From Lachnospiraceae bacterium (GTDB lineage Bacteria; Bacillota; Clostridia; Lachnospirales; Lachnospiraceae): DNA of 33,851 bases. Both the position numbers and the translations under genes were made by a program. The DNA is taken from NCBI GenBank assembly GCA_017441825.1, contig JAFRVD010000008.1, positions 1-33,851 on the forward strand, given 5' to 3'. Below, piece by piece: positions 6,014 to 33,851 of this stretch. The notes below the pieces were generated by a model. The model made no database searches and was not told the DNA's origin. It saw nothing but the letters and a program-made list of their open reading frames with translations. Each line of letters begins with the position of its first letter. Positions within the stretch are counted from its first letter, which is position 1.

Positions 6014-8143
6014 ATGATTGCAAGTTATCTGATCGCGTTAGTGATCGCGATACTGGCTCTCTGCTACGTCTGCTGGAATTTCTTCCGCATCAAGAAGATG
6101 CCGGAAGGCACTCCGGAGATGGCTGAAATGGCCGGTATCATCAGAAGCGGCGCAGTCACGTTCATGAAGACGGAATACAGGACCGTCGGAATCGTCGTGC
6201 TGATCGTCGCAGTGATCTTTTCACTGTTCGTGGAAAAGACAAGCGGCATCACCTTTATTGTGGGCGCGTGCATGTCCACAGCGGTCTGCGTACTCGGTAT
6301 GAGATCCGCAACCTACGCAAACGTACGTACATCCAATAAGGCCAGAGAATCCCTTTCAATCGGCGAAACCGTCAAGGTCGCGCTGTGCGGCGGATCCATT
6401 TCCGGTCTTGCAGTTCAGGCCTGCGGTATCCTGGGCCTTATCCTGATCCTTCTGATCTTCAAAGGCGTGAACGGTGACGCTACGGGCACAGGCTTCCTTG
6501 CGAACCTGGAATGCAACCCCACCATCATGCGTATCACCACCTACTCCCTTGGCTGCTCCGTGGTCGCCATGTTCAACCGTGTCGCGGGCGGCAACTACAC
6601 CAAGGCTGCCGACATCTCCTCTGATATTCTGGCGAAGATCCGTCACGATATGCCCGAGGATGACAGCCGTGTCCCGAACGTAGTGGCAGACTTTATCGGC
6701 GATAACGTCAACGACATCGCCGGCAACTGCTCTGACCTTCTTGAGTCCTTTGTTGCGACCATGGCTGCGGCCATCATGATCGCGCTTACGCTTCACAGAG
6801 GCTCCGGCGCTTCCGAAAGCCTTTTCGAAGCGACTGCAATTTACCCCATCATCGTTGCGGCCGGCGGACTGATCGGCTGCCTCCTTGGTCTTGGCTACGC
6901 CCAGATCAAAAAGATGGGCAACGACCCGTCCAGAGAGCTTGACCTTGCCACATGGATCTCTGCCGGCCTGACCATCGTGATCGCACTCATCGGCGCGCTC
7001 ATCGTCTTCAGCCGCGGAGAAATCAAGGCAGAGCTTTACGACAGCTTCAAACTGGGCTGGGTCTCCCCGTGGCTTTCAGCGGTGCTCGGCATCGTGTCCG
7101 GTATCGCCATCGGCTCCATCACGGAGTATTACACCAGTACGGAATATAAACCGACCAGAGAACTTGCGGAGATCGCGCCGGAAGGCGAAGCTTTCGTTAT
7201 TACGAAGGGCGATGCCATCGGCTCCCGTTCCTGCCTGTTCCCGATCCTTGTGATCAGCGTTTCACTTCTGATTTCCGGCCTGATCTGCGGCACGTACGGT
7301 ATTGCGATGTCCGCACTCGGCATGCTCGCATTCGTGGGCGCGACCGTCTCCATCGACGCGTTCGGACCCATTGCGGACAACGCCGGCGGCCTGGCAGAGA
7401 GCTGCCACCTGGATGAAAAGGTCCGTGCAATTACGGATAAGCTGGACGCTGTAGGCAACACCACGGCGGCAATCGGCAAGGGCTTCGCGATCGGCTCCGC
7501 CGCATTCGCGACCGTTTCCCTGATCGTAGCGTACGTAGGCAACTACATGGCTGCAGGCGCCGAGCCTGTCCTGAACTTTGCGTCGTTCATCGTGGTGGCC
7601 GGCGGTATCATCGGCGGCGGCCTCGTGGAATACTTCTCCGCAGTCCTGACCGACAACACCATCGACTCTGCGAAGAAGATGGCGGACGAAGGCGACAAGG
7701 AGCTTTCGATCCCCGGCGTGCTGGAAGGAAAGGTCCATCCGAATTACAACCGTCTGGTCGAAATGGCGGCCAAGGAAGCGCTCAGAAAGATGCTCTTCCC
7801 GTCCGTGCTTGCCATCGTGATCCCCATTGTGGGCGGCTTCATCTTCGGCGTCGAATTCGTGGGCGGCATCCTGGTCGGTGCGACCATCGTGGCCATCCCG
7901 AGAGCCATCTTCATGGGCAACTCCGGCGGCGCGTTCGACAACGCCAAGAAGTACATCGAGATCGGTGCTCTGAAGGGCTACGGCAAGGGTACTGCAGCGC
8001 ATAAGGCGTCCGTCACCGGCGACACCGTGGGCGACACCCGTAAGGACGTTGTAGGCGTTGCGCTTGATATCTTCATCAAGACCATGTCCACCGTCGCAAA
8101 TACGCTGGCCAGTGTGATCAGGACAGTTACGCTTGTTAAGTAA
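6014..8143 (+). CDS. hppA: K+-dependent membrane-bound pyrophosphatase, Na+- or H+-pumping
   Basis: The 709-residue, ~16-helix protein couples PPi hydrolysis to cation export. Hydrolytic motifs are present but altered from the usual: KAADISSDILAKIR replaces KAADVGADLVGKVE (both Asp kept, final Glu replaced by Arg), PEDDSR is kept, and GDNVNDIAGNCSDLLESF keeps Asp230, Asp234 and Asp241. The GNTTAAIGKG segment (Ala485, Gly488) has Ala where K+-independent enzymes have Lys, so the enzyme should need K+. Glu244 in D-L-L-E-S occupies the position used by Na+-pumping enzymes such as that of Thermotoga maritima, which suggests Na+ transport. Divergent Na+-regulated H+ pumps are also known, so the ion needs testing. 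It is a single-gene unit with its own promoter and terminator. It recovers energy from PPi made by biosynthesis, including the phosphoribosyltransferases encoded nearby. Confidence 0.93.
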   Translation: MIASYLIALVIAILALCYVCWNFFRIKKMPEGTPEMAEMAGIIRSGAVTFMKTEYRTVGIVVLIVAVIFSLFVEKTSGITFIVGACMSTAVCVLGMRSATYANVRTSNKARESLSIGETVKVALCGGSISGLAVQACGILGLILILLIFKGVNGDATGTGFLANLECNPTIMRITTYSLGCSVVAMFNRVAGGNYTKAADISSDILAKIRHDMPEDDSRVPNVVADFIGDNVNDIAGNCSDLLESFVATMAAAIMIALTLHRGSGASESLFEATAIYPIIVAAGGLIGCLLGLGYAQIKKMGNDPSRELDLATWISAGLTIVIALIGALIVFSRGEIKAELYDSFKLGWVSPWLSAVLGIVSGIAIGSITEYYTSTEYKPTRELAEIAPEGEAFVITKGDAIGSRSCLFPILVISVSLLISGLICGTYGIAMSALGMLAFVGATVSIDAFGPIADNAGGLAESCHLDEKVRAITDKLDAVGNTTAAIGKGFAIGSAAFATVSLIVAYVGNYMAAGAEPVLNFASFIVVAGGIIGGGLVEYFSAVLTDNTIDSAKKMADEGDKELSIPGVLEGKVHPNYNRLVEMAAKEALRKMLFPSVLAIVIPIVGGFIFGVEFVGGILVGATIVAIPRAIFMGNSGGAFDNAKKYIEIGALKGYGKGTAAHKASVTGDTVGDTRKDVVGVALDIFIKTMSTVANTLASVIRTVTLVK

Positions 8144-25202: not shown

Positions 25203-25227
25203 CCAAAATGCCTCTCTGCATTTTTGG
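25203..25227 (+). other. Leader hairpin upstream of the giant protease gene
   Basis: CCAAAATGC (25203-25211) pairs with GCATTTTTGG (25218-25227) with one bulged T, in the leader 41 bases before the start codon. The in-frame ATG at 25208 lies inside its left arm. It may affect mRNA stability or translation. Confidence 0.5.
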
Positions 25228-25267
25228 ACAGCTGAATGGGTGCATATCGGCAAGAGAAAGGATGAAT

Positions 25268-28200
25268 ATGAGGAAAAGAACGAAATCTTTACTGGCCCTT
25301 CTTCTGGCCGTCGTGATGATCCTCTCAAGCGCAGGTGCGAGCCTTGCGGCGCCGGAAGACGAATACGGGACCGGCACGGAAGGCCCGGGAGAAGCAGCGG
25401 ATCCCGAAGAAGGCCCGGAAGAGTCTTCGGACGGGCAGGAAGAGCTGTCTGATCCGGAAAGCGTTGAACTCGAGATGGAGGACGTGGATCCTTCATCGCT
25501 CAGTATTAAAAAGCTCGGGGAGCTTCCGGATGACGAAGAGGGTGAGGAAGAGGAGGTCGGTGAGATCTCATTGACGCCGGACACGTCTCTCAATCAGACC
25601 GTTCGCGTGTCCGTTTTCCTGGAGACGCCGGGAGCGTTGGACGCAGGCTATGCGCCTCAGGGAGTTGGAACGAACGGCGGCGCGATCGCCTACCGGGATT
25701 CACTGAGGGCGAATCAGACGCAGATGACGGCGCAGATCGAGTCCGCTATCGGATATTCGATGGATGTGAAATGGAACCTTACGCTTTTGGTCAATGCGAT
25801 CTCAGGCTATGTGAAGGTGAAGGATATTCCGATCATTGAACGCATGAGCGGCGTGGCTGCGGTCGTGCGGGAAACGCAGTACGAGGTCCCTCGCGAAGCT
25901 TCCGGCAGCCAGCCGAACACCGCGACCACAAGCAGGGATATGGTCGGGGCGACGTCCGCCTGGTCTGCGGGCTATACCGGTACAGGCACCAGGATCGCCA
26001 TCATCGACACCGGTATCGATACCACGCACCAGTCCTTTAATGCGGATGCGTTCAACTACTCGATCAACCAGCAGGGGAAATCCGGGTCGCTCATGACTGC
26101 TTCCGACGTCAGCGGGGTACGAAACCAGCTGAACAGCGGAAACAGCAACTACGTCAACACGAAGATTCCCTATGGTTACAACTATAGAGATAAAAATACG
26201 ACCATCACTCATCTGAACGACATGCAGGGGGAGCACGGTTCCCATGTGGCGGGCATTGCTGCTGCAAACCGCTACATTAAAAACGGTTCGAGCTATGTGG
26301 ATGCCGCGTCCAGCGTTTATGCGGTCGGCATGGCGCCGGACGCGCAGCTCCTCGTAATGAAGGTGTTCGGCGCAGGCGGCGGTGCGTATGATTCCGATTA
26401 CATGTCGGCTATTGAAGACGCGATCGTCCTGGGCTGCGACGCGTGCAACCTGTCTCTGGGTTCGGCAACGCAGGGCTTTACCTATGACAAAACATACCAG
26501 AACATCCTGAACGGTCTGGCTTCCGGGACGGTTAATTCCGGAATGGTCGTTTCCATCTCCGCCGGCAACAACCATGCCCTGACAGACCATCTTGATACCG
26601 ACCTTTATATCGACGACGTTTACATGCATACCGGCGGCTCGCCGGGCACGTATATCAACAGCCTCTGTACGGCTGCGGCAGAGAATATCGGCGCGATCGG
26701 TACGCCGCTCGTCTTTAACGGCAGCAATATTTATTATACTGAGACTTCATCGAACGGCGCGGCTATGGCGAGCATTGCCGGGACGTACGATTTTGTGTAT
26801 ATCGACGCGCTGGGTGACACGGCGGATTACCGGACGGTCAATAATACGATCAGACTATCCGGGAAGATCGTCATCGTCAACCGCGGCGAGCTTAACTTCT
26901 ATGATAAAGGCAACAACGCGATAAACTACAGTCCGAAAGCGCTGATCGTGGCGAACAACCAACCCGGTTCCATCAGCATGGATCTGACTAACTATTCCGG
27001 CAAGTTCCCGATGGTCTCGATCACTCTTGCGGATGCGGAGATGATCAAGACAGATGGTGCAAGGCAGACAGTCGGCAGCTATACCTGCTATACCGGCAGG
27101 ATCACCGTGACGAGCGGAGTATCGAGCGGCCTGATCACCTCCCGTGAAAATGCCGAAATGTGCGGGTTCAGCTCCTGGGGCGTGCCCGGCTCGCTTCTCA
27201 TGAAGCCGGAGATCACCGCTCCGGGCGGAAATATCTACTCCGTTTTCGGCACGAACAGGACGAATTCCGGTACGGAGGGCGGCTCGAACCAGTACGAGCT
27301 CATGAGCGGCACCTCCATGGCCGCACCGCATATTGCGGGCCTCGCGGCAGTGGCGGCCCAGTACCTGAAGGAAAAGAACGTCACGGTATCCGGCTACAGC
27401 CGCCGTGCGCTCGTCCAGTCCCTCTTAATGTCTACCGCGACGCCCATGAAGAGCGGCACTTCATATATTTCAATTCTGCAGCAGGGCGCCGGTCTTGTGG
27501 ACGTCAGTAAGGTCGTCAATGCCAGATCCGCCATTTTCATGACGGGCACCAACCTCACCAGTTCGACCGGGGCGGCTGCAGACGGCAAGGTGAAGGTCGA
27601 GTTCGGCGATGACCCGGGCAGAAGCGGAAACTACAGCTATTCCTTCCGGATCTATAACCTGACGAATGAAACACTGAATTTTGAAGCGCCCGAAACGGAT
27701 ATCTTTACCCAGGGATATTACACTGCTGACGGTGAAAACTTCATGAGCGGAGGTACCATCGGCGCAGGAAGCCAGACAGGCTTTACCTGGACGCCAAGCG
27801 TTGTCGTATCCAATCCGTATGACGTGAATCAGGACGGTTCTACGAATCAGGCGGATGCCCAGGCGATCCTGAATTACCTGACGGGAGAAGCTGATGGAAC
27901 GGGTCTCAACCTTACTGCTGCGGATTATGACGGCAATGACTCTATAACCACCTATGACGCGTACCAGCTTCTTACGTATCTCAAAAATGAGGAAGAAGCG
28001 GCAGCAGGGTGCTTCATTCCGGCGAACGGCTACGCGGACGTGAGCATAAGTTTCAGCTTTGGCGTGGATACCGGCGTTTACACTGCCGGCGCATACATCG
28101 AAGGCTTTACCTATGTGACTGAAATGCCGACAGGCGACGGGGCACAGGGCGTTCAGCATACGATCCCGATCCTGGGCTTCTACGGCTCCTGGACGGATCC

Positions 28201-31200
28201 TTCCATGTTTGACAATACGTCATACGTGGATACGGTCTACGATACGAAGAAGACCCCTTATACAGGGGTTAAGGACACCAATTACCTGACGGTCAATTAC
28301 GGCGGACACTCTTACAAGTTCTCAGGCAACCCGTACATCGTTGAGGATGAGTTCCCGGCGGACAGGCTGGCTGTCAAGAGCAGTACCCGGTTCGTGAATA
28401 TCACGTACAGTCTTTTCCGTTCGGCGGGAACCACAGGCTTTGCTGTGTCAAAGCTGGACGAACCGCTCGGAAATGTAAGTACGGTTCTCAGTGCTCAGCG
28501 CGGCGAGACAGAAGTTAACGGAATCTATTATTCATCGAGCGCCGGCGGGTTAACTAACAAAGCGCCGAAGATCCACTCTGTCAATAAGACGGTTTCTTCA
28601 TACGGCCTCAGTGAAGGCGACGTATTCCGGATCGGTTTCTATGCGGTTCCGGAATACACCGGCATGAAGGTGAACAGCAGCCTGACGAGCGGATCCGCAG
28701 GAATTCTGACCGAGGAAAGCTTCAAGAACGTGCTGAGGAGCAACATCCTGGGAAGAGGCACGTTTGTCGGCTATGATTTCACAGTAGACGATACGGCGCC
28801 GAGAATCGAATCAGCGGTTCTCAACGGAGACGAGCTGACCGTGACGGTGCACGATAACAAGAACATAGCTTATCTTGCACTGCTGTCTCTGGACGGCGAA
28901 ACGGTTTATGCGAAAACAGCGCCGGGTACCGATGAATGCAGCTTTACCTTTAATGCGGCGGAAGCCGTTGAAAACGCGAAGGGATTTGTGACGATCTTTG
29001 CCGCCGATTACGCGGGCAATGAAACGGCCAAAGCGGCAAGGGTCAATGACAACCTGGTGGCAGAGAAAACCGTTTATGTGCTGACGAATACGCTGACCTC
29101 CGGTGAAAAGTACCTGATCGTGAACAATAATTCAGAAGGTTCCGGATATGCACTGGGTCATTCGGGTACGACGGTCGCAGCAGTTCAGGTCACGGTAAAT
29201 GAGGGGATCAGCGAGACTGACGGCAAGGTTTATATTTCCGGAAGTGACGTGGATGAGACCTCTGTGTGGACAGTAGGCGGAAACTATACGTTCAAAAATG
29301 AATCGTATTATCTGAACTCTGTTAATAACAATTCACTCAGCTGTTCGAATTCGTCAAGGACTTGGTCTGTCGGGACGAATACGCTGTTCTACACTGTCAG
29401 GAGCGTTTGGAGCAACACTAATTATTATGTGGCATACTACGGCAGCAGATGGACCTTGGGCACCACCAGCAGCAACGTCTACTTCTACGAAGAGAAGAAG
29501 ATCACCCTTGTGATCGATCCGGACAGGATCAACTCGATCACGGTTACACCATCGAGCCTGGACCTTTACAAGGGCAATACGGCGGAGCTGACGTATGAAG
29601 TGGATCCTATCACGGTAGAAGATCACTCGGTTACGTGGTCCTCGAGCAACAATGCCGTAGCAACAGTCGATGAATTCGGAACGGTGACAGCGGTTGGTGC
29701 CGGAACGGCCACCATTACGGTGACTTCCGATTCGGACAGCGGCAAGAGTGCTGAATGCACCGTGAAGGTGACAAGCATCAACAAAACGTTCAATGCCATC
29801 ATCTGGGATGAACAGAGCGGCGAGTATTTCTCAACCTTTAACACCGATAGTCTGCCTGCCTGGACAAAGAATCATGGCGATGCAAAGGGGCTGTATCTGG
29901 TTTCTGCTTTCATGCAGAACTCGAATACGCTGTACGCGGCAACGTTCAATACCAGCGATTTAGAAACGAAGCTGTATACAGTCAACCGGTCTGGGTATGG
30001 GCTGACGGAATATGGAACGAACTATTTGTGGGCTTCGGATATTGCAATAGGTGCGATTGGAAGTGACAGAATACATTATGAAGACTATGTCGGAATGGTT
30101 TATACCTTCGCTTCATATATTGTGGGCGGGACAATTGCCCCCAGTGACGATGGCGAAGGCGGCATATACTGCGGTGTGCCATATGCAAAGTTTGACTTCA
30201 GCAGCGTGACGGGGGATGTGTTCCTCGCGGGCATAGCATGTGAATCCCGCAGTGCATCCGGCGGAACCTATTATGTATTAGATGAGAACGGTGCGATTTG
30301 GCAGACGACGCTCAGCTTTAACAACCGGAGCAGGTCTTTCTCCTTCAACACTCCGACTAAGATCATGGAAACCGGCATCAGGACCAGTTTCCTGTTCCAG
30401 AATCTGTATTACGATGGAACTTACCTGTACTGGTCACATACAGACGGTGATTACGCGACGTTGTACATAATCGACCTTACGAATCAGGTAATCTACAACG
30501 CCGGCGATTTTGGTGCTAACGTGTGGCCGGTGACCGGCTTGTATGTGAACGGTTCCGTGGCACCTGCATCTGACGGCGAGACAATGGATGATGGTGCGCC
30601 TGCTGACGCAGATTTTTCCGGCCTTCAGATCTTAGCGACCCGTGACCAGCTGATGACGCCGGCAGTCCGTGCACGGTTCATGGCGGAAGCAGCGAAATAT
30701 GCGAGCAAGAATGTGAAGTCGGCGGCGCCTAATGAGGAATCGGACGAGCCGGAAGCTCCGGCAGAGCCTGAAGTGGAGGAGCCGGAAGAACCCGCAGAAG
30801 ATGAGGGTTCCGGTGAGGACCAGGAAGAACCGGGAGACGGGTCTCAAGAAGGCTCGGACGGAGAAGACGTACCCGGCGGTGACGATGAAGAATCATCCAG
30901 CGGACCTGAAGAGGGTTCGCCTGGCGGGTCAGATGAAGGAGTTTCCGGAGGAGGACCCGGCGGTACCGGAGAAGGATCGGCCGGGGAAGAGTCCGCCGGT
31001 GGTTCTCTGGAGGAACCGGCGGAAGGCTCGACACCCGGCGGAACGGGCGGCGGAGCCATTGAAGACCCCGGGGCATCTGACGGTGCCGGAGAGCAGGAAC
31101 CGGGGAACGAGGAGACTCCTGACCCGGCGTACATGGGCTCGCTCAATGCTGTCAGCAATGGTTCCGGGACGAAACGGCCTGTCAGAAACGCCGTTACGAT

Positions 31201-32659
31201 ATCAGGCGCGGATTCTGCGGAAGAGGGTGATACAATCGAAATCCGGCTCTTTGAGACGGATGCCACACACAACGGTCTCTACGAGATCAGCTATGATCCG
31301 GAAGTGCTTGAATATAACACCAAGGCGACTAACAATACGGTCCTCTGGTCCGCCCATACGGATGAAGAAGTCGGAACCGTGACTCTCGCCTATGCAGGAG
31401 CGGAGTCCGTAGCTGCCGACCAGGATATAGCTACAGTGACCTTTAATCGAATCGCAAACAGTGGGACGACCCTGTACGTGGAGACCAGAGAACGGAATAG
31501 CCAAGCCGGGCTGCACGATTCGAAAGAGACAACGCTGCCGGAGATAGAGGTGGAAGAGACGGTGACGGTGACGTTCGTAGAGACAGACGGAACCGCAGTA
31601 AGCGGAGTAGACGCCCAGACAGTTGAGACAGGCGGAAAGGTCACAGAACCGGATCCGGCACCGACGAAGGATGGGTTTACCTTTGGAGGATGGTTCAAGG
31701 AATCAACACTGGCCACACCTTGGGCATTTGATAGTGATACTGTAAGTGAAGACACTTACTTATATGCTAAGTGGATCCTGACAGCGAACTGCACTATAAC
31801 AGACGTCATAGTTCTTAAGGATAATATTGACTTCCTTGTTGATGTCTCCAATTTTACAAATTCGACATATTCAGATTGGACGATCGTGTCGAAATTTGCA
31901 AATGGTGAAGAAGTTGAACATCCTCTTACAGAGGCGACTCTGACTGGCAGCAGGTACAGATTAAGATTAGCTACAGCTGATTCGCGTCAGATGACTGAAC
32001 CTGTGGAAGTTGCTTTATACTTCAGGCGTACACATAATGAAAGCGGTGCTGTATTGGATGAAGGCGTATTCTGCAAATCATATGTTTCATCGATACAGGA
32101 TGTTTGCGAATATAACATCAGGAACAATACCAGCGCTAAAGCATTGTGTGAAGCAATACTGGAATATGGTGCGGCAGCCCAGACACACTTTGGATATAAG
32201 GTGGATGATCTCGCGAACGCAAATATCAACACATACGATCCTTCATATGTCAGCCATATTGACGACACAGTCATTGATACAGAAACGTATAAGTATAGTT
32301 TAGTAGGCACAAAGAATTTCACAAGTATGACACCGTCGCTTGTTCTTAAATCAGAAATTTCTTTGAAGCTGAATTTCATACTCAGTGATCCCGATACTGT
32401 GTTCAAGGATTCAACGGGGAAGGTGCTTTCAACTACGACGAATGGGAATTATACGGTTGTTTCATTCCTCGGAATTAAAGCTATTGACCTTAGTAAACCG
32501 ATAGTAATCACAATTGAAAACAGCAGTGGGACAACAACAATGACGTATTCACCCTTCATTTTTGCCGCCGAGAACCAGACAGGGAACAGTACTTTGGCGA
32601 GACTGTGCAGAGCCCTGTACTGCTACGGTGTCAAGACTATTGAATACGCAGGAGATTAA
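25268..32659 (+). CDS. Giant secreted S8 subtilisin-like protease, multidomain
   Basis: 2463 residues. Signal peptide 1-27/28; acidic linker to about 110; I9-like propeptide 115-215. The S8 domain has Asp247 (IIDTG), His323 (EHGSHVAG) and Ser683 (GTSMAAPH), with a PA-type insert at about 485-600, as in lactocepin/C5a peptidases. The following Fn3-like region contains a dockerin-type repeat pair (about 850-912; DVNQDGSTNQADAQAI and DYDGNDSITTYDAYQL). Then come an unassigned beta-rich region, a Big2 domain (1421-1500), a propeller-like region (1500-1815), a Glu/Pro/Gly linker (1818-1954), a cohesin-like domain (1970-2076), an InlB-type repeat (2098-2168) and a 295-residue C-terminal domain. There is no LPXTG or C-terminal membrane anchor. 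ATG 25268 is chosen since AAAGG lies 6 bases upstream; ATG 25262 abuts it. GC content drops sharply near base 31,700. It is probably surface-bound; the substrate is unknown. Confidence 0.9.
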   Translation: MRKRTKSLLALLLAVVMILSSAGASLAAPEDEYGTGTEGPGEAADPEEGPEESSDGQEELSDPESVELEMEDVDPSSLSIKKLGELPDDEEGEEEEVGEISLTPDTSLNQTVRVSVFLETPGALDAGYAPQGVGTNGGAIAYRDSLRANQTQMTAQIESAIGYSMDVKWNLTLLVNAISGYVKVKDIPIIERMSGVAAVVRETQYEVPREASGSQPNTATTSRDMVGATSAWSAGYTGTGTRIAIIDTGIDTTHQSFNADAFNYSINQQGKSGSLMTASDVSGVRNQLNSGNSNYVNTKIPYGYNYRDKNTTITHLNDMQGEHGSHVAGIAAANRYIKNGSSYVDAASSVYAVGMAPDAQLLVMKVFGAGGGAYDSDYMSAIEDAIVLGCDACNLSLGSATQGFTYDKTYQNILNGLASGTVNSGMVVSISAGNNHALTDHLDTDLYIDDVYMHTGGSPGTYINSLCTAAAENIGAIGTPLVFNGSNIYYTETSSNGAAMASIAGTYDFVYIDALGDTADYRTVNNTIRLSGKIVIVNRGELNFYDKGNNAINYSPKALIVANNQPGSISMDLTNYSGKFPMVSITLADAEMIKTDGARQTVGSYTCYTGRITVTSGVSSGLITSRENAEMCGFSSWGVPGSLLMKPEITAPGGNIYSVFGTNRTNSGTEGGSNQYELMSGTSMAAPHIAGLAAVAAQYLKEKNVTVSGYSRRALVQSLLMSTATPMKSGTSYISILQQGAGLVDVSKVVNARSAIFMTGTNLTSSTGAAADGKVKVEFGDDPGRSGNYSYSFRIYNLTNETLNFEAPETDIFTQGYYTADGENFMSGGTIGAGSQTGFTWTPSVVVSNPYDVNQDGSTNQADAQAILNYLTGEADGTGLNLTAADYDGNDSITTYDAYQLLTYLKNEEEAAAGCFIPANGYADVSISFSFGVDTGVYTAGAYIEGFTYVTEMPTGDGAQGVQHTIPILGFYGSWTDPSMFDNTSYVDTVYDTKKTPYTGVKDTNYLTVNYGGHSYKFSGNPYIVEDEFPADRLAVKSSTRFVNITYSLFRSAGTTGFAVSKLDEPLGNVSTVLSAQRGETEVNGIYYSSSAGGLTNKAPKIHSVNKTVSSYGLSEGDVFRIGFYAVPEYTGMKVNSSLTSGSAGILTEESFKNVLRSNILGRGTFVGYDFTVDDTAPRIESAVLNGDELTVTVHDNKNIAYLALLSLDGETVYAKTAPGTDECSFTFNAAEAVENAKGFVTIFAADYAGNETAKAARVNDNLVAEKTVYVLTNTLTSGEKYLIVNNNSEGSGYALGHSGTTVAAVQVTVNEGISETDGKVYISGSDVDETSVWTVGGNYTFKNESYYLNSVNNNSLSCSNSSRTWSVGTNTLFYTVRSVWSNTNYYVAYYGSRWTLGTTSSNVYFYEEKKITLVIDPDRINSITVTPSSLDLYKGNTAELTYEVDPITVEDHSVTWSSSNNAVATVDEFGTVTAVGAGTATITVTSDSDSGKSAECTVKVTSINKTFNAIIWDEQSGEYFSTFNTDSLPAWTKNHGDAKGLYLVSAFMQNSNTLYAATFNTSDLETKLYTVNRSGYGLTEYGTNYLWASDIAIGAIGSDRIHYEDYVGMVYTFASYIVGGTIAPSDDGEGGIYCGVPYAKFDFSSVTGDVFLAGIACESRSASGGTYYVLDENGAIWQTTLSFNNRSRSFSFNTPTKIMETGIRTSFLFQNLYYDGTYLYWSHTDGDYATLYIIDLTNQVIYNAGDFGANVWPVTGLYVNGSVAPASDGETMDDGAPADADFSGLQILATRDQLMTPAVRARFMAEAAKYASKNVKSAAPNEESDEPEAPAEPEVEEPEEPAEDEGSGEDQEEPGDGSQEGSDGEDVPGGDDEESSSGPEEGSPGGSDEGVSGGGPGGTGEGSAGEESAGGSLEEPAEGSTPGGTGGGAIEDPGASDGAGEQEPGNEETPDPAYMGSLNAVSNGSGTKRPVRNAVTISGADSAEEGDTIEIRLFETDATHNGLYEISYDPEVLEYNTKATNNTVLWSAHTDEEVGTVTLAYAGAESVAADQDIATVTFNRIANSGTTLYVETRERNSQAGLHDSKETTLPEIEVEETVTVTFVETDGTAVSGVDAQTVETGGKVTEPDPAPTKDGFTFGGWFKESTLATPWAFDSDTVSEDTYLYAKWILTANCTITDVIVLKDNIDFLVDVSNFTNSTYSDWTIVSKFANGEEVEHPLTEATLTGSRYRLRLATADSRQMTEPVEVALYFRRTHNESGAVLDEGVFCKSYVSSIQDVCEYNIRNNTSAKALCEAILEYGAAAQTHFGYKVDDLANANINTYDPSYVSHIDDTVIDTETYKYSLVGTKNFTSMTPSLVLKSEISLKLNFILSDPDTVFKDSTGKVLSTTTNGNYTVVSFLGIKAIDLSKPIVITIENSSGTTTMTYSPFIFAAENQTGNSTLARLCRALYCYGVKTIEYAGD

Positions 32660-32721: not shown

Positions 32722-32737
32722 CGAAAAGGAGAGAATA

Positions 32738-32854
32738 ATGAAAGATACGTATACGAACCCGGAGATTCAGTTTGTCACGCTTGATTGCAGCGATATCATT
32801 ACTGCATCAAATCCGTGTGGTGAGGTTACAGAAATTTCTGGACCCAGCCATTAA
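32738..32854 (+). CDS. 38-residue RiPP precursor candidate
   Basis: This short gene encodes a 38-residue peptide with no signal peptide. It opens MKDTYTNPEIQFVTLDCSDI, the probable leader, and continues ITASNPCGEVTEISGPSH, the probable core. Cys17 and Cys27 are the only two cysteines. The start has AAAAGGAGAG 5 bases upstream. A perfect hairpin and then a radical SAM maturase gene follow immediately, which is the standard layout of a ribosomally made, post-translationally modified peptide. Short peptides with N-terminal Y-x-x-P-E-I and a D-I-I-T-A-S segment recur in gut Clostridia as I recall. Modification type (thioether to an alpha, beta or gamma carbon, or another C-C/C-X bond) cannot be read from the sequence. 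The alternative, a small regulatory protein, is less likely given the neighbour. Confidence 0.75.
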   Translation: MKDTYTNPEIQFVTLDCSDIITASNPCGEVTEISGPSH

Positions 32855-32864
32855 TTAGTTTGAA

Positions 32865-32892
32865 ACGGCAGGCAGTAAACACTGCCTGCCGT
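32865..32892 (+). terminator. Hairpin between precursor and maturase genes
   Basis: A perfect 12-base stem, ACGGCAGGCAGT (32865-32876) with ACTGCCTGCCGT (32881-32892), around AAAC. The following ATTCTT is a poor T-run, so it is likely a partial terminator that yields much more precursor than maturase message, common in RiPP operons. Confidence 0.85.
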
Positions 32893-32915
32893 ATTCTTAA
32901 GGAAGAGGGTATATT

Positions 32916-33851
32916 TTGGAGATAATAAAAAGACCAATTCCAGCCGTTCTTACTGTTTTGGGAACCCAACCAGACATGAAACCGGAAAGATGTAAAGAAT
33001 CGGTTTTCAGTATACATGTTCCCTGTAAAGACGGGATCCTTTTATATCATTCTTTAACCGGAGAATTACTGCTCCTCACAACAGCAGAATATACCGGGAG
33101 AATATCAGATCCGGCACTTTACAATGAACTAGTGAAACGCTTCTACCTGGTTGACGGCAGAACAGATGAAGTCAAACTGTGTAATCAAACCAAGAAGATA
33201 TTAAAGGCTATTAAACCGCAGTCTAAGATCGTAAAGAACTATACTATATTTACAACTACAGATTGTAACGCACGTTGTTACTACTGTTTTGAGATGGGTC
33301 AGCGTCGAATTAAAATGTCTGAAAAAACTGCAGGCGACGTGGCCGATTATATCAGCCGATCCTGTGATAAGGAAAAAGTATCGATCCGCTGGTTTGGAGG
33401 TGAGCCGCTTTTCAACATCAGGCCCATTGATATTATTTCTGACCGTTTACATAAATCGGGTATCAGTTTTGAAAGCCATATAGTGACTAACGGGTATTTA
33501 TTTGATCAGGAAATAATCAGGAGAGCGAAGTCAAAATGGATGTTAAAGTACGCGATCGTCACTTTGGACGGAACTGAAAAGACATACAATACAACTAAGG
33601 CGTATATTTATAAAGATCAAAATCCATTCCGGCGTGTACTGGATAATATTGAGGACCTGCTGCGTGCAGGTATAGGTGTCATAATTAATCTGAATATGGA
33701 CGCTGATAATGCGGGAGATCTGGATCTGCTTATTGAAGAGTTGGCGAAAAGGTATCGTAATTATCCTGACTTTAGTGTCAGATGTGCATTGTTGGAGGAA
33801 TACGCCGGTAATATTCATCATTTCGCAAGTCAGGAAACAGCTTTTAATACA
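32916..33851 (+). CDS. Radical SAM peptide maturase, 5' part (cut by window edge)
   Basis: 312 codons are open to the window end with no stop. I read the start as TTG 32916, with GGAAGAGGG at 32901-32909. The N-terminal ~110 residues contain ESVFSIHVPCKDGILLYHSL, typical of the peptide-recognition region of SPASM-type maturases. The radical SAM motif is CNARCYYC, Cys117-x3-Cys121-x2-Cys124, which holds the 4Fe-4S cluster. IRWFGGEPLFN is the SAM-binding GGEP motif. Later strands include IVTNGYLFDQEII and YAIVTLDGTEKTYN, normal for peptide-modifying enzymes. SPASM cysteines would lie past the edge. It would modify the adjacent 38-residue peptide. The gene is AT-rich compared with the rest of the window. 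Confidence 0.88.
   Translation, partial: MEIIKRPIPAVLTVLGTQPDMKPERCKESVFSIHVPCKDGILLYHSLTGELLLLTTAEYTGRISDPALYNELVKRFYLVDGRTDEVKLCNQTKKILKAIKPQSKIVKNYTIFTTTDCNARCYYCFEMGQRRIKMSEKTAGDVADYISRSCDKEKVSIRWFGGEPLFNIRPIDIISDRLHKSGISFESHIVTNGYLFDQEIIRRAKSKWMLKYAIVTLDGTEKTYNTTKAYIYKDQNPFRRVLDNIEDLLRAGIGVIINLNMDADNAGDLDLLIEELAKRYRNYPDFSVRCALLEEYAGNIHHFASQETAFNT

Follow-up and report, generated by a model that had tools for sequence, protein, structure and literature searches.

The end of the stretch of Lachnospiraceae DNA analysed here (the window, 33 851 nucleotides) probably encodes a PqqD-guided radical SAM RiPP pair, that is, a short precursor peptide and its maturase. The leader of the precursor would be recognized by a PqqD-type protein, Cys27 in its tail would be crosslinked, a hairpin between the two genes would have an attenuating role, the precursors are dispersed over the genome and the product would act at the cell surface. 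Taken across genomes, the precursors point to a family of modified, surface-linked peptides that has not been described previously; the literature searched, mostly at the level of listings, yielded no published description of the leader family.

The window is the entire contig C40 of genome G000 (2.6 Mb, 82% complete). Its last three genes encode a subtilase with a dockerin, a small peptide starting 78 nt behind the subtilase gene, and a radical SAM enzyme running off the contig, with the hairpin between the last two (Table 1). The subtilase matches the Pfam models for S8 peptidases (5.6e-44), Big_2 (3e-18), the Listeria-Bacteroides repeat (Flg_new, 4.3e-15), PA (1e-8) and the type I dockerin (Dockerin_1, 3.4e-8); its final ~290 residues are without any Pfam match. 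A C-terminal motif of roughly the form A.Y.YG.SA..Y (32580-32656 in the window) is common to several giant proteins that precede precursors, the others being in L044, L045, L047, L048, L094 and L103. Many ORFs in the window are as short as 38 aa, and length alone is unremarkable; the peptide gene stands out because its leader is shared with peptides of other genomes and because the pair recurs. The short gene with a good ribosome-binding site and no cysteines other than Cys17 and Cys27, the 12-base perfect stem and the TTG-started frame with CxxxCxxC and WFGGEP motifs were all described correctly in an earlier note on this DNA. The same note called the maturase truncated. The frame stops at the contig end, which rules out natural truncation, and since the window is the whole contig, the term applies to the assembly and says nothing of the gene itself; the eight relatives of full length have 438–575 aa. 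The enzyme matches the Pfam Radical_SAM model PF04055 (2.4e-13; 51 bits, above the cut-off of 29.5), and its TTG start is supported by identical residues from position 2 on in the alignment with the enzyme of L022. No dedicated exporter adjoins the pair in the window.

Table 1. Positions of the features in the window and of tail matches in related loci
Feature	Position	Strand	Basis or sequence
Giant subtilase, 2483 aa from first start	25208..32659	+	likelier start 25268; C-terminus ALYCYGVKTIEYAGD
Ribosome-binding site of precursor, AGGAG	32727..32731	+	sequence
Precursor peptide gene, 38 aa, ATG start	32738..32854	+	sequence; family alignments and family searches
Precursor leader, residues 1-24	32738-32809	+	family alignments
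Precursor tail/core, residues 25-38	32810-32851	+	NPCGEVTEISGPSH; family alignments
Perfect 12-bp hairpin, 4-nt loop	32865..32892	+	arms 32865-32876 and 32881-32892, 100% complementary
Radical SAM maturase, N-terminal 312 aa of ~450, TTG start, cut by contig end	32916..33851	+	Pfam; clade tree
CxxxCxxC (CNARCYYC), maturase residues 117-124	33264..33287	+	sequence
WFGGEP, maturase residues 159-164	33390..33407	+	sequence
Precursor/anchored-protein tail match	L098, 5202-5942		EVDEDGWTTIIVKP/ETDEDGWTVIIVKP
Precursor/anchored-protein tail match	L102, 5271-5870		EEYELPFIP/DEYELPFIP
Precursor/anchored-protein tail match	L089		DDGWTGYY/ESGWSGYY
Precursor/anchored-protein tail match, window's own genome	L048 (C77), 6528-7019		EQNEGELD/DPNEGERD
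Linker protein with same or similar tail as precursor	L104, 4792-5664		
Linker protein with same or similar tail as precursor	L181, 1600-2112		

Family alignments divide the precursors into a conserved leader, Y..PE.EVI.F...DIITxS (looser form Y..PE.EhhxF...DIITxS), and a variable tail. The core start proposed earlier, from about ITASNPCG on, was nearly right, the conserved leader ending in ...DIITAS at residue 24. At an E-value of 0.001 or lower, a profile of 35 leader-family peptides matches 15 of the 250 genomes in the family sample. The genomes searched were sampled from one family and one order and are partly incomplete, the profiles were built partly from genomes that were afterwards searched, the genes of the loci were called by a simple custom script, and the statistics given below ignore kinship. 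With a first, smaller profile, weak matches (E above 0.01) were discarded unless confirmed by the later one (G249); when 15 genomes of the same genus were searched permissively (E up to 10), five gave matches, seven of these matches being in G012 and some of the weakest being chance. An NCBIfam scan of 11 precursors gave a single match, judged chance (E 0.099). The precursors are dispersed: the three copies of G000 are each on a different contig, as are the eight clear ones of G012, a genome that has in addition a weak ninth precursor and one clade maturase.

In a tree of 26 enzymes, from which those of G178, G402 and G340 were left out, the window maturase belongs to a clade of nine (support 99/99), together with the enzymes of L022 (G610), G012, G603, G537 and G010, two of G160 and a partial one of G285. 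When genome contigs were scanned with the window enzyme, two loci were obtained, of which L022 was useful. Leader-family peptides occur in seven of the eight clade genomes versus 15 of the 250 genomes of the family sample; the profile included peptides from six of these clade genomes, and the two peptides of G537 were new. The earlier note had named peptide homologues next to radical SAM genes as a check on its radical SAM RiPP-type pair, and the recurrence of the pair supports it: a leader-family peptide is present in five of the nine clade loci, namely the window and four of the other eight, and is directly adjacent to the enzyme in three (window, G610 and G603). The same search found no such peptide in 18 enzyme loci outside the clade. 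G603 (L164) repeats the window order of surface protein, peptide, hairpin and enzyme, followed by another surface protein and PqqD; in G610 (L022), the order is enzyme, peptide and PqqD. In the two G160 loci, the peptide is 1.1–1.2 kb from the enzyme with PqqD nearby (PqqD was identified by Pfam in all these loci), precursor and enzyme being on opposite strands at C52 and the pair at C94 resting on a weak peptide match (22 bits). The loci of the G537, G010 and G285 maturases contain no precursor, and the G010 genome (73% complete), which has the enzyme, gave neither a precursor nor a PqqD match. Neither peptide nor PqqD lies beside the G012 maturase, and the single PqqD match of that genome is on another contig, so that the parts would have to meet in trans.

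Beyond the clade, a more distant radical SAM enzyme of 369 aa adjoins PqqD and a leader-family peptide (G171:C6), and 12 of the 15 precursor genomes of the 250-genome sample are without an enzyme of this clade; the leader alone therefore does not define the substrates of the clade enzyme. The window peptide might be the substrate of a different system, either PqqD with an HPrK-like kinase, NTP_transf_5 and an ABC exporter or the PqqD and ABC genes at G000:C33, and its radical SAM neighbor would be there by chance. Most leader-family peptides are indeed located away from the clade, several of them beside PqqD, HPrK-like, NTP_transf_5 or ABC genes, and the only PqqD match of G000, at C33, adjoins another precursor. 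Chance adjacency is nevertheless distinctly unlikely given that four further clade loci have the pair, side by side in two of them, and that tail cysteines go with the maturase clade (see below).

PqqD (E 1e-6 or better) is found in 110 of the 250 genomes, including all 15 with precursors and 95 of the 235 others (p 2.5e-6); this co-occurrence supports, short of proof, presentation of the leader by PqqD. The overlap is less tight for a broader radical SAM profile, with five of its 19 genomes among the 15 precursor genomes (p 0.003) and two of these five enzymes (G026 and G103) outside the clade. Three PqqD proteins of related clusters score 28–45 bits versus a cut-off of 70 for the lasso PqqD model. 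In the window genome, leader residues 1-24 would be recognized by a PqqD-type protein that is either supplied in trans from C33 or encoded beyond the contig end; the N-terminal domain of the maturase itself may take part in this recognition. The predicted order of strands and helices in residues 25-95 of the L022 enzyme only loosely suggests an RRE-like domain, the AlphaFold model from a two-row alignment being poor (mean pLDDT 46.7). In L093, L099, L111, L112 and L197, leader-family precursors, or the PqqD genes of precursor genomes, are clustered with genes for HPrK-like proteins, small S24/S26-like peptidases, NTP_transf_5 and ABC exporters; these gene sets vary, and some members were run against Pfam or NCBIfam and the rest judged by eye.

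Among the 45 distinct precursors, a tail cysteine is present in 12 of the 20 from clade genomes versus one of the 25 from elsewhere (p 4e-5) or, by genome, in six of seven versus one of 13 (p 0.0012). Outside the clade genomes, the sole precursor with a tail cysteine is that of G171:C6, which has a different radical SAM gene for a neighbor, and the clade genome without a tail cysteine is G285, whose enzyme is partial. Since the tail cysteine goes with the maturase clade, it is probably what the clade enzyme acts on, and Cys27 is the likely site of the chemistry. The earlier note singled out Cys17 and Cys27, but Cys17 lies in the leader, leaving Cys27 as the tail cysteine. Leader cysteines occur in five of the 45 precursors, and only one other (G014) has a cysteine in the Cys17 column; a Cys17–Cys27 crosslink was rejected as the default. 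The radical SAM cluster and the SPASM-like auxiliary clusters of the maturase would instead link Cys27 to a nearby residue of the tail, perhaps an acidic one. Glu29 or Glu32 is a guess by analogy with PapB, an enzyme that crosslinks Cys with Asp/Glu and takes Cys-Xn-Asp substrates with n of 0–6 (PMC9413430, in part).

Eight of the 20 precursors from clade genomes, including two of the three in G000, are without a tail cysteine, and hence not every leader-family peptide can be a cysteine substrate of the clade enzyme. One precursor near a clade enzyme, the + one of G160:C94, has no tail cysteine. This case and the count of eight are compatible with a maturase that makes something other than a Cys thioether, such as a C–C bond or an epimerized residue, Cys27 having another part; the NCBIfam models matched below cut-off also span several chemistries. 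The clade association of the tail cysteine weighs against such a product, as does the closest solved relative by profile match, PDB 5wgg (E 1.3e-24), which we take to be CteB, the thioether-forming SCIFF maturase. This other chemistry appears rather unlikely, and a thioether-type crosslink at Cys27 is the preferred reading.

The auxiliary-cluster part of the enzyme is missing in the window, and SPASM-like cysteines, which the earlier note proposed to look for in a complete enzyme, are present in the relatives. The pattern CX2CX5CX(5-7)C is found in all seven full-length clade enzymes (the partial G285 enzyme being left out of the count), versus CX2CX5CX3C in 15 of 17 enzymes outside the clade, the exceptions being G103 (X4) and G171 (X2). 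The widened spacing marks a group of enzymes whose auxiliary clusters may differ. The Pfam SPASM model matches one of seven scanned enzymes, at 17.3 bits and thus under the cut-off of 21.5, in scans of which one listed E up to 0.01 only; a search of G000 with this model gave a single match, on another contig. Directly beside radical SAM enzymes in L143 (7933-9342) and L145 (5191-5943), there are lipoprotein-like proteins of 229–250 aa with Cys-rich C-terminal tails, possibly radical SAM substrates carried on an anchored protein.

Comparison with known systems reveals likenesses to several and a close match to none of the models. The best NCBIfam match is TIGR04463, the rSAM_vs_C_rich radical SAM/SPASM RiPP maturase, with 103 bits for the window enzyme and 96, 116 and 125 for three full-length relatives; these scores are far under the 525-bit cut-off, and the clade has the wider SPASM spacing instead of CX2CX5CX3C. 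The partners of TIGR04463 enzymes are Cys-rich peptides, not the leader family found here. Ranthipeptides and PapB share with the window a radical SAM enzyme and a Cys-bearing core with acidic residues, but the window enzyme and its relatives score 67–82 bits for PapB (NF047865) versus a cut-off of 340, and the precursors differ from ranthipeptides in having one tail cysteine and no repeated CX3D, a separate PqqD in relatives, and a dispersed arrangement. Despite the profile match to 5wgg, scores for the SCIFF model TIGR03974 are 36–63 bits versus 425, and SCIFF peptides have six cysteines. The SynChlorMet cassette consists of ScmC, ScmE and ScmF. Some other leader-family clusters resemble it in combining an HPrK-like gene, PqqD and a radical SAM gene, and the HPrK-like gene of L111 matches ScmC (42.9 bits versus a cut-off of 125). 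However, the window enzyme scores 33 bits for ScmE versus 400, and nine precursors scanned matched no such model; no ScmC kinase was noticed by eye among the window ORFs. Prochlorosin precursors are dispersed as well. The present family would resemble the prochlorosins, in which one promiscuous enzyme, ProcM, serves many precursors (PMC10783134, in part), but theirs is lanthipeptide chemistry, and the G012 paralogues keep their tails while the leaders drift.

The 65-nt stretch around the window hairpin folds at -26 kcal/mol (z -6.7; not equaled by any of 200 shuffles). L164/G603 (z -3.6, followed by T-rich sequence) and L022/G610 (z -4.4) likewise have a stable hairpin immediately after the precursor; the gap between enzyme and precursor in L022/G610 has no notable fold (z -0.9). 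The place directly behind a precursor is a usual one for a partial terminator that favors the precursor message. The window hairpin, in which only four of the next eight bases are T, was not among the hits of a terminator scan. It may be a terminator- or attenuator-like element that would let the short precursor message outnumber that of the maturase.

The surroundings of the precursors point toward the cell surface. Of the 41 scorable precursor rows (identical copies included; six of 47 rows were unscorable), 28 have an ORF of 400 aa or more on the same strand no more than 300 nt upstream, versus 69 of the 273 other genes of these loci (p 1e-7). Read from their N-termini, these large ORFs would be putative secreted proteins; the S8 protein in the window is a protease, and many other precursors follow proteins that are not S8-like. 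The precursor would be encoded with a giant secreted protein because its product acts at the cell surface. The same arrangement is what would be expected if the short gene were an ordinary small accessory protein of a surface-protein operon, with the conserved N-terminus as the working part. Such a role is very improbable in view of the presence of PqqD in every precursor genome, the tracking of the maturase clade by the tail cysteine, and the codon changes among the G012 paralogues. In three pairwise comparisons (three distinct sequences), the counts of synonymous/replacement codons are 6/0, 4/1 and 7/1 in the tails and 2/11, 4/11 and 5/7 in the leaders; the changes being mostly synonymous in the tail and mostly replacements in the leader, the tail is the constrained part there. 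Each of four G012 precursors with a near-identical tail (PGGQ/SHAGDPDCLVDF) comes after a different gene, and the products of these four genes have similar C-termini. In L101 (G285:C67:23000-36000), two alike, inverted units of surface protein and precursor flank an integrase-like gene and could be an invertible switch.

In several loci, a small membrane-anchored or lipoprotein-like protein with a low-complexity linker is encoded near the precursor, and its C-terminus resembles the precursor tail (Table 1). A candidate neighbor exists for 28 of 45 precursors, with a summed score of 513 versus 349 ± 24 in permutations, none of 20 000 reaching it; the choice of filter followed inspection of examples, and two versions with different filters agree. 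When the three best loci are left out, 24 of 20 000 permutations are as high. The score reaches 20 in eight of the 28, with 1.4 expected, and a single genome (G021) accounts for three of the four best matches. No tail-matching anchored protein is visible in the window. At L138 (6904-7526, G160:C94), the frame of a linker protein stops before a short frame ending in ALPIFH, similar to SMPIVH in the precursor, the two frames being different. A more far-reaching proposal, which is unlikely, is that the system serves surface display, not a secreted natural product: genome-specific cores would occur both as leader-guided, PqqD/radical-SAM-modified peptides whose genes follow those of giant secreted proteins and as C-terminal tails of anchored linker proteins, and the matching cores would tether, label or recognize the cell's own surface proteins.

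The earlier note is thus supported in its RiPP-type pair and its core start; a Cys17–Cys27 pairing is not supported, and the truncation of the maturase is that of the contig. It overlooked how the family is scattered over the genome, how often its members follow large surface proteins and that they co-occur with PqqD. The sharing of tails between precursors and anchored proteins suggests that RiPP chemistry may be used at the surface of gut bacteria. If the reading given here is right, gene-cluster mining would miss most members of the family because their genes follow those of surface proteins at a distance from the enzyme gene.
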